This document shows positions 3,444-20,887 of a stretch of DNA of 64,000 bases, in pieces (within the stretch, counting starts at the first letter, position 1; the number at the start of each line of letters is the position of its first letter). The translations under genes and the position numbers were made by a program. This stretch comes from Fusobacterium varium. GTDB taxonomy: Bacteria > Fusobacteriota > Fusobacteriia > Fusobacteriales > Fusobacteriaceae. Under the pieces are notes generated by a model, which saw only the letters and a program-made list of their open reading frames with translations, did no database searches and was not told the DNA's origin. The stretch covers positions 868,001-932,000 of the forward strand of contig LR134390.1 of the NCBI GenBank assembly GCA_900637705.1, read 5' to 3'.

Positions 3444-5943
3444 ATGAACTTTTTACATGATAGAGGAAAAGCAGCTATTATATATAAGGATAGAGAGTAT
3501 TCCTATAAAGAACTCATAACAGGTATAAAATATTATTCTACACTATTAAAGATAAAAAAAGATGATAAAGTTGTTGTATATGTAGAAAATAGACCTGAAA
3601 TAATAGAAGCATTGTTCTCAATATGGGATTCAAAAGGAATAGGGGTTGTATTAGATGCAGGTTATACAGCAGAACAACTTCTTTATGTATTTGAAGATGC
3701 AGAACCTCAATATATTTATGCAACAAATAAAAATTATAAAAATGCAATAGAAGCTAAAGAGAAATATGGAAAAGAAATAGAAGTAATAAATATAGATGAA
3801 ATAGTAGTGCCAGAAAACTTTATTCCAGATAATTATGAAGTAAATATAGATAATACAGAGGATGTAGCTTTATTGCTATATACTTCTGGAACAACTGGAA
3901 GTCCCAAGGGTGTAATGCTTACATATGCTAATCTTTTATCTAATATAAATGCTATAAAAGCAATAGAGTTGGTAGATGAAACTGATAGAATACTTGCTAT
4001 ACTTCCATATCATCATATATTTCCATTAAATATAAATTTACTTATGACTATGTATTTTGGAACTTTGGTTGTAATATTAGATGAAATGTCTTCAGAAGCT
4101 TTAAAAAAGGCTCTAAAAGATTATAAAATAACTGTAATAATTGGGGTTCCTAGAGTATGGGAAATGCTTCATAAAGCTATAATGGGACAGATAAATAAAA
4201 GTTGGATAATAAAGAAGCTATTCAAACTATGTCAGAAGATAAACAGCTGTACATTGAGTAGGTTAGTATTTAAAAAAGTCAATGATGAACTAGGTGGCTC
4301 ATTAAGAGTAATGGCATCAGGAGGAGCCAAATTAGATCCTGAGATTGCCAGAGATTATCTTACTCTTGGTCTTCCACTGATGGAAGGATATGGACTTACT
4401 GAAACTTCTCCAATTATTTCATTTAATAATCCTCATAGAATAAAACCTGGAACAGTAGGAGAACTTATACCAGATATAGAAGTAAAAATAGCTGAAGATG
4501 GAGAAGTACTTGTAAAAGGTGCTAATGTAATGAAGGGATACTATAACAATCCTAAAGCAACAGCTGAAGTAATAGATGATGAAGGGTGGTTTCATACAGG
4601 AGATCTTGGTAAGTTGGAAAATAATTATCTCTCAATTATTGGAAGAAAAAAGGAAATGATTGTTCTTTCAAATGGAAAAAATATCAATCCAAGTGATATA
4701 GAGAGTGAAATATTTAAAGGAACGGATCTCATAAAAGAAATAGCTGTTATGGAATATAATAATCATTTAATGGCAGTTGTATATCCTGATTTTGATTTAA
4801 TAAAACATAGAAAAATAACTAATATAAAAGAAACATTGAAATGGGAAATAATAGATAAATATAATGTGACAGCTCCTAAGTATAGAAAAATACTTGAAAT
4901 AAAAATAGTGAAAAATGAACTTCCAAAAACTAAATTAGGAAAAGTAAGAAGATTTATGCTTAATGACTTTCTTAAAGGACAGACTATGGAAGAGGGAAAT
5001 GAAGAGAATTCAACTGTTGAATTAAAAAAGAGATAATAATACCAAATGAATATAAAACTGAGTATGAAACTTTAAAGGATTATATTGAAAAAAATTATAA
5101 TGTAGAAGTTACACCAGATGCTCATTTAGAACTTGATTTAGGATTAGATTCATTAGATATAGTAGAGATATTGTCCTTTATAGAGATGAGTTTTGGAATA
5201 AAAATAACAGAAGAAGAATTTACTGATATAAAAATGTATTGGATATAGCTAAGTTTGTTAAAGAAAAGGGTGGAGAATTTACTGAAAATGAGGTAGATTG
5301 GAAAACGATTCTTAACCAAGAAATAAATATAAAGCTTCCTAGATCAGCATGGGTAGGAAAACTTATGAGATTTATATTAAAACCAATGTTTAGTATTTAT
5401 TTTAGCTTAAAAAAAGAAGGGCAGGATAAAATTCTTTCAGAACCTGCAATATATATTGGAAACCATCAAAGTTTTCTAGATGCCCTTATTTTCAATCAGG
5501 CAATATCATCTTCAAAGATGGAGGATACTTATTACCTTGGAACAATAGTACATTTTGATTCACCTTTAAGAAAATATTTAGCTGATAGAGGAAATGTTCT
5601 TATTATAGATATAAATAAAAATTTGAAAGAAACTTTACAAGTAAGTGCAAAAGTATTGAAAGAGGGAAAAAATCTTGTTATTTTTCCTGAAGGAGCAAGA
5701 ACAAGAGATGGAGAAATACAGGATTTCAAAAAGACTTTTGCTATTCTCTCTAAGGAGTTAAATATACCAATAGTTCCATTTGGAATAAAAGGTGCATACG
5801 AAGCTATGCCTTATGGTCAAAGATTTCCTAGTATGATGCCGATATCTATAAAGTTTTTTGATAAGGTAATTCCAGAAGGATTAACAGTAGAAGAGATAGT
5901 TGAAAAAAGTAAAGATGAAATAGAATTGTGGTTAATAAAATAA
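3444..5943 (+). CDS. three-domain AMP-ligase / acyl carrier / PlsC acyltransferase (copy 1), two frameshifts
   Basis: A fused lipid enzyme resembling Aas. Residues about 1-520 are an acyl-CoA/acyl-ACP synthetase with LLYTSGTTGSPKGVML and the YGLTETSP motif. An acyl-carrier domain follows with the phosphopantetheine Ser in LGLDSLDIVE. The end is a 1-acylglycerol-phosphate acyltransferase with NHQSFLDA (HX4D) and FPEGARTRDG. It should activate a fatty acid, load it on its own carrier and esterify a lysophospholipid at the membrane. Two single-base losses split it: A-run 5024-5029 and A-run 5230-5234. One added A at each gives an 833-residue chain collinear with copy 2 at 7860-10320, which shows the break is in the sequence and not in gene design. 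Confidence 0.87.
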
Positions 5944-6003
5944 TAAAATAATAAAATAATAAAATAATAAAATAATAAAATAATAAAATAATAAAATAAT
6001 AAA
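5934..6003. repeat. 8-bp tandem repeat (AATAAAAT) x ~8.7
   Basis: About 70 bases of perfect AATAAAAT units. The array begins in the last codons of the preceding acyltransferase gene, supplies its TAA stop (5941-5943), and ends at the base of the shared terminator hairpin. Units of eight are prone to slipped-strand length change. Confidence 0.95.
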
Positions 6004-6050
6004 GAGATTAGCTATAAGGGAATTATCCTTTTTAGCTAATCTCTTTTAAT
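6001..6050. terminator. bidirectional terminator between convergent genes
   Basis: A perfect 13-bp stem, AAAGAGATTAGCT (6001-6013) with AGCTAATCTCTTT (6034-6046), with A and T tracts on either side. It can serve the lipid gene on the left and the minus-strand F420-ligase-like gene on the right. Confidence 0.88.
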
Positions 6051-7432: not shown

Positions 7433-7468
7433 TTAAGAAAGTACTAAATTTTAAAAGGAGGAAAAATT

Positions 7469-7771
7469 TTGATAGAAATAAAAGAAAAAGTTTTAAAATA
7501 TATGAAAAAAAATAATTTTAATGGAATAATTTTAAAAAAAGAGATACAAAATTTTGGTTGAGCAGGCTGCCAAGATGTAATTCAGGGTGAATTCGTAAAA
7601 GAAACAGATAATATTTCTCAAAGAGAGGTAAAGTATATTATAAAAGAAATAGAAGGAATAAAAGTGTTTATTCCAGAATATTTAAAAGATATAAAAGAAA
7701 TGAGAATAAGTTCATTATTTAGTGTTTTTAGTAAAATAATGATTTTAAATATTGAAATAACAAATATTTAG
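7469..7771 (+). CDS. HesB/IscA-like small selenoprotein candidate with in-frame TGA
   Basis: A 100-codon frame opening at TTG 7469 behind AAAAGGAGG and closing at TAG 7769-7771, interrupted only by TGA at 7559-7561. Around the TGA it reads NFG-U-AGCQDV, which lines up with the first metal-binding Cys region of A-type iron-sulfur carriers (IscA/HesB). The part after the TGA, with GIKVFIPEYLKD, fits the rest of that fold. HesB-like selenoproteins with Sec at this place are an established bacterial family. A bulged hairpin with an AGGGT loop follows 22 bases after the TGA, as expected for a bacterial SECIS. Because the frame continues unchanged for 69 codons after the TGA, a plain pseudogene is less likely. 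A conventional gene caller would miss it. Function: probably a redox or Fe-S related protein; not certain. Confidence 0.65.
7562..7600 (+). promoter_or_regulatory. bacterial SECIS-like element
   Basis: Inside the coding region just after TGA 7559-7561. Stem ATG (7575-7577) with CGT (7594-7596, one T-G wobble), a single bulged T at 7578, then AATTC (7579-7583) with GAATT (7589-7593), closing on loop AGGGT. The E. coli fdhF SECIS likewise has a bulged U below a short stem and a loop beginning AGGU, 17 bases after its UGA compared with 22 here. Confidence 0.55.
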
Positions 7772-20528: not shown

Positions 20529-20576
20529 AAAAAAACTTAATTATATGCAATATAAAAATGCACATAGCTCAAAATC

Positions 20577-20746
20577 ACAGATAGCACTCCACTGAAATAA
20601 TCAATGACAGTAGTATAAATATTTTTTATACTACCAACAAAAGAATTTTGGCCTTTTCTTTCATTTCGGCAGAATTCCCTTTTTGATCATCTCAATGTCT
20701 GCCAGACTAAATGATCATACTTATGTTTTCTGCGCCTCTATCTTTC
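20577..20746 (-). promoter_or_regulatory. lysine riboswitch (L box) aptamer
   Basis: The RNA reads AGATAGAGGCGCAG at the 5' side, then AAGTA, a GGGAA/GCCGAAA helix-junction pair, TTGGTAGTAT, CTGTCATTGA and GTGGAGTGCTATCT at the 3' side. These blocks are the lysine riboswitch consensus in the right order and spacing. The first helix is formed by AGATAG with CTATCT. About 170 bases, directly before a terminator, so transcription control in the off-by-lysine sense is expected. Confidence 0.92.
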
Positions 20747-20887
20747 TTTTTATTTTTATAAAGCTGATTATACGTCAACATAGATAAAAAGTAAAATATA
20801 ATAAATAAATTAATTATATATTTTTATAAATATAAAATGTATAAATATAATAAACCAAGAACTATCCTAAAGTATATATAGTGCATA

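Follow-up and report, generated by a model that had tools for sequence, protein, structure and literature searches.

The TGA at codon 31 of a 100-codon frame in Fusobacterium varium very probably encodes selenocysteine (Sec), as judged from sequence comparison, and the protein is best called a distant HesB/IscA-like selenoprotein of a family outside the current models. The window, i.e. the whole stretch of DNA analysed, is 64 kb long with a GC content of 28.7%, and the features proposed in it are given below with the respective evidence.

7469..7771, forward strand: putative selenoprotein gene, 100 codons followed by TAG (frame, homologues, dN/dS)
7456..7461, forward strand: Shine-Dalgarno AGGAGG, 7 nt upstream of the TTG start (from the sequence)
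7559..7561, forward strand: TGA codon 31, the probable selenocysteine codon, in FG-U-AGC (UxxC) (TGA in 29 Fusobacteriota genomes, Cys in six)
7575..7596, forward strand: SECIS-like hairpin with 3 lower pairs, bulged U7578, 6 upper pairs and a GGG loop (compensatory changes, Ile codon always ATT)

Reading frame and its selection

The frame consists of 30 codons, the single in-frame TGA, 69 more codons and TAG. It is translated as LIEIKEKVLKYMKKNNFNGIILKKEIQNFG-U-AGCQDVIQGEF...NI*, and the protein sequence spanning position 31 is EIQNFG-Sec-AGCQDVIQGEFVK. The first-pass annotation of this DNA, which was made from the letters and their open reading frames, had described a 100-codon frame with a good ribosome site, one TGA in NFG-U-AGC and 69 codons after it, and this description was accurate. 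A purine-rich site like AGGAGG was also present upstream of the start in many relatives. Pairwise dN/dS between family members was below 1 before as well as after the TGA, with values of about 0.2-0.6 downstream, and therefore the part downstream of the TGA appears to be translated and under selection.

The chance level for a TGA followed by a hairpin was estimated within the window, where 216 of 2247 TGA trinucleotides (about 10%) are followed by a stem of 6 bp or more at a bSECIS-like spacing and three frames contain a TGA with 30 or more codons before it and 60 or more after it. Since comparable hairpins follow about a tenth of the TGAs in the window, the combination of TGA and hairpin alone is weak and not significant, and its significance is taken to come from conservation across relatives.

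Conservation of the TGA and its exchange with cysteine

Among 61 related genomes, including the window's own genome, 17 homologues were found, 15 with exactly one TGA and two without TGA, which carry Cys instead. The TGA was located at the same column in homologues down to about 31-33% identity to the query. By a profile search of 98 Fusobacteriota genomes, TGA was detected in the same motif position in 29 genomes, distributed as 11 of g1 (the window's genus), 7 of g8, 7 of g13 and 4 of g4, and Cys was detected in six (G016, G028, G071, G024, G035 and G078). The Sec motifs were FGUAGC, GCGUAGP, GGUCAG/GGUCSG and SKUCPV and the Cys motifs were SKCCPV, VGCSCVG and KGCCTP. Most members of the Fusobacterium clade carry U-A-G-C, which is a UxxC motif. 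Besides the start, the Sec/Cys column was the sole invariant column in the family alignment, and two nearby cysteines could fill it in g14 (KGCCTP) and in g6 (VGCSCVG). No sense codon other than Cys was seen at the codon-31 column among the relatives, and thus the column that the first-pass annotation had singled out for comparison holds TGA or Cys throughout, in close relatives as in other homologues.

The g4 loci L078-L081 carry SKUCPV with TGA, versus SKCCPV in G071, and represent an additional branch of the family. A scan of the wider genome contigs with only two short patterns, which may overlook relatives in other phyla, gave one Fusobacterium locus (L077) after closer alignment.

An in-frame TGA might also mark a pseudogene or a sequencing error, i.e. 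a formerly intact gene broken by a stop, and at least six one-base frameshifts in the neighbouring and sel genes of this assembly speak for such an explanation. These frameshifts, however, are one-base deletions at A-runs and not substitutions to TGA, the frames of the family are otherwise intact, and dN/dS stays below 1 after the stop. The sequencing error that the first-pass annotation had also considered is contradicted by the same TGA in 28 other genomes. A pseudogene was therefore rejected, and a broken or misread gene is regarded as extremely improbable.

Selenium machinery

All four genes named for a search in the first-pass annotation (selA, selB, selC and selD) were found in the host genome, where selD, selA, selB, a yedF-like gene and the tRNA-Sec gene (selC) lie in one cluster (G000:C1, 614-619 kb). 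The host selD itself contains a TGA, with the Sec motif GGUASKIGP; folding gave no clear fdhF-like hairpin as the SECIS of selD, and thus selD serves as a control for Sec coding only. In the 61-genome set, tRNA-Sec exceeded the Rfam cut-off in 26 genomes, including every one of the 15 with TGA, and fell short of it in the Cys genomes G016 and G028 (Fisher p 1e-7 for TGA versus tRNA-Sec, uncorrected for kinship). Of the 98 genomes of the phylum, 52 have selB, as do 28 of the 29 TGA genomes (Fisher p 4e-9 for TGA versus selB, shared ancestry ignored). Both Fisher values overstate independence because they ignore shared ancestry. The single TGA genome without a selB match was G082, which is 76% complete; among the Cys genomes, G016, G028 and G071 are without selB and G024, G035 and G078 are with it.

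In this assembly, selA and selB each have a one-base frameshift versus relatives. One-base deletions versus G002, in or beside A-runs, are located at 5030, 5235, 7909 and 8670 of the window and at about 2791 and 4759 of L107, and break two acyl-ligase/acyltransferase genes together with selA and selB. The deletions, including those in selA and selB, are likely assembly errors, since the selA and selB frameshifts lie at A-runs as do the four others near the gene. If the selA and selB frameshifts were genuine, Sec insertion might be beyond the capacity of this strain, though not of the family.

A further explanation, without selenium, is decoding of the UGA as a different amino acid (Trp) or leaky readthrough, and a weak hairpin is by itself no proof of SelB binding. 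On the other side, UGA terminates 3 of the 41 long ORFs in the window and is therefore an ordinary stop here, the column exchanges with Cys and not with Trp, and the TGA form is limited to selB genomes, save one incomplete genome. On these grounds, reading as Trp or leaky readthrough was rejected and is considered most unlikely, and insertion of Sec is preferred.

SECIS-like hairpin

In the hairpin, AUG (7575-7577) is paired with CGU (7594-7596) and AAUUCA (7579-7584) with UGAAUU (7588-7593), and the spacing from the TGA to the GGG loop is 23 nt. The hairpin with a single bulged T and the loop AGGGT reported previously for this DNA is the same hairpin, with the closing A-U pair left open in that reading. 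The bSECIS model comprises a loop of 3-9 nt, an upper stem of 4-16 bp, a G in the first two loop positions, a distance of 16-37 nt from the UGA and a minimum free energy of at most -7.5 kcal/mol (PMC13188914). The geometry here agrees with this model (3-nt GGG loop, 6-bp upper stem, 23 nt from UGA to loop). With respect to the energy limit of -7.5 kcal/mol, a 63-nt fold starting before the UGA gave -8.8 kcal/mol (z -0.14) and a 30-nt fold, as the representative of the hairpin alone, gave -3.5 kcal/mol (z -1.8). The hairpin alone is thus thermodynamically weak and single-sequence folding is not significant; in longer folds, other structures win in several family members.

The hairpin alignment was gapless from the TGA and comprised 24 distinct members. 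All 24 aligned members and one g4 member have the start of the loop element 22 nt after the TGA; the element is AGG or a close variant (GAGG, GGGG), or UAGUU in L019 and L021 with the stem position unchanged. Just below the bulge, G-C, A-U and G-U pairs occur; the loop is closed by A-U or G-C, and the middle stem pair is A-U in g1 and g8 and C-G in g13. For the 24 sequences, 88.9% of the cells were paired and 21 cells were changed on both sides versus 7.5 in shuffles, a level reached by 0 of 500 shuffles; for the 17 nearer sequences, the values were 94.1% paired and 8 doubly changed cells, levels that 5 and 2 of 500 shuffles, respectively, attained. The stem Ile codon was ATT in 17 of 17 genes versus 102 of 240 Ile codons elsewhere in the same genes (p 1e-6), where ATA is the commonest Ile codon. 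The conservation of the hairpin region is partly due to coding (the IQGEF stretch). As the bulge base is C or A in three members, the bulged U is usual and not strict.

According to the proposed mechanism, SelB with Sec-tRNA(Sec) would recognise the hairpin just 3' of UGA codon 31, and Sec would be inserted there in place of a translation stop. The product would have 100 residues and a distant relationship to HesB/IscA, with Sec replacing the first Cys ligand of A-type carriers and Cys34 following three residues later (U-A-G-C). The real Sec insertion proposed at first pass is supported by the conserved UGA, the Sec/Cys exchange, the conserved hairpin and the Sec machinery, and Sec would presumably be made in the cell.

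Protein family and fold

The window protein gave no match in Pfam, and TIGR01911 gave no match in the host genome at E 0.001 (cut-off 66.35 bits). The score of the window protein for NF041239 was 14.3 bits versus a cut-off of 40 bits; NF041239 was the best curated match of most members tested, with 32.6 bits in g13 and 28.8 bits in g14, all below 40 bits. The family is thus related to TIGR01911 and NF041239 and a member of neither by their cut-offs. PF01521 gave no match in any of the 61 relatives, including the host genome, with one family member reaching E 0.018, and no canonical A-type Fe-S carrier of this type was found in these genomes of the Fusobacteriaceae and its order.

Structure prediction was run on the window and L077 proteins, and the model was of low confidence (mean pLDDT 63.5, pTM 0.57). 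The first five Foldseek matches among 350,542 PDB chains were IscA, SufA and AQ_1857 (IscA/SufA-type), with E from 0.003 to 0.2, and the first six by VIA-align were IscA, SufA, DsrR and a putative Fe-S biosynthesis protein, with Z from 5.1 to 3.8. A profile alignment with four IscA-type proteins placed the Sec on IscA Cys35 with a score of 26.5 versus a maximum of 19.2 in 100 column-shuffled decoys; the E. coli IscA query, with which these IscA-type proteins were retrieved, matched PDB 1s98 at full length. A PDB sequence search with the family profile gave chance matches only. Of the three IscA ligands (Cys35, Cys99 and Cys101), the first is Sec here and the C-terminal Cys-x-Cys is absent.

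Given the mean pLDDT of the model, the HesB/IscA fold is supported and not proven. The placing of the TGA at the first Cys of A-type Fe-S carriers agrees with the alignment on Cys35. The description as HesB/IscA-like holds at the level of fold or superfamily; it does not hold by the curated HesB-type cut-offs, all of which the protein falls below, or by the C-terminal ligand cysteines, which it lacks. By its sequence, the protein is not a canonical A-type carrier, since it is below the TIGR01911, NF041239 and PF01521 cut-offs and has no C-terminal Cys-x-Cys.

Gene neighbourhood and possible role

The genomes closest to the window have the gene flanked by two long acyl-ligase/acyltransferase genes (AMP-binding, PP-binding and Acyltransferase domains), with an F420_ligase-family gene adjacent; in g13 its neighbours are lon and an NAD(P)H-hydrate dehydratase gene. 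In g6, a genus with no tRNA-Sec and no selB, the Cys form is located directly 3' of nrdA-nrdB (L100 4949-5252, with a counterpart in L101). The nrdAB product has a di-iron cofactor in known class I enzymes, and the position of the Cys form next to these genes is a hint of iron handling. The gene context differs between genera, and the function is not fixed by it. Between the acyltransferase and F420_ligase genes, the window has a AATAAAAT-type short tandem repeat (about 5950-6010), which is much shorter or absent in G002. A lysine riboswitch (123 bits) is located at 20574-20748 on the reverse strand of the window.

The selenolate and Cys34 may do metal or Fe-S binding or thiol/selenol redox work. 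Metal or Fe-S binding is given about an even chance as the role, and the narrower proposal that the Fusobacteriaceae use the Sec family as an iron or Fe-S handling HesB protein, with the selenolate as a metal ligand, is unlikely. Somewhat tentatively, the protein may be a real selenoprotein for thiol/selenol redox work by UxxC and not for metal or Fe-S binding, with the HesB fold as a remote resemblance. The UxxC motif, common to most Fusobacterium-clade members, and the absence of the C-terminal Cys-x-Cys of IscA point in this direction, and the evidence for HesB comes from a low-confidence fold and profile matching. Against a redox role, the second thiol is not kept, with UAGP in one member and U-C in g13 and g4, and the g6 Cys homologue adjoins nrdA-nrdB.

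Significance and comparison with known systems

The present family adds to Fusobacteriota a putative selenoprotein family that is not named by Pfam or NCBIfam models as they now stand. The gene is unannotated, and standard gene calling would end it at the TGA. The motifs UAGC, UAGP, UCAG, UCPV, CCPV and CSCVG form a natural Sec/Cys series in one family, which can be compared against the presence or absence of the Sec machinery, and the short covarying hairpin is a test case for SelB recognition in an AT-rich genome. No paper naming the protein in Fusobacterium was found in a literature search that had most subscription papers outside its scope; the protein could be among the 90 HesB-like selenoproteins of PMC5029168.

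The protein is like the TIGR01911 family in being a HesB-like selenoprotein, and the UAGP member L017 of the present family fits the TIGR01911 motif UxGP (PMC13188914), whereas most members of the present family carry UAGC. NF041239, the best curated match here, is a CC/Se motif family selenoprotein predicted in Moorella thermoacetica, and its motif is CxxU (PMC13188914), in contrast to U-A-G-C or U-C in the present family. With IscA/SufA/ErpA (PF01521), the protein shares the fold matches, the Sec on IscA Cys35 and GIKVFI aligned with GVKVVVD; it differs by the lack of a Pfam match and of the C-terminal Cys-x-Cys. In the TIGR01911 family, Sec occupies the first conserved Cys position of the HesB domain. 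The SECIS of E. coli fdhF has a bulged-U stem and a small G-rich loop. The present hairpin is like it in having a stem with a bulged U and a small G-rich loop, here 23 nt after the UGA, and unlike it in having a weak A/U-rich stem and a bulge six pairs from the loop.
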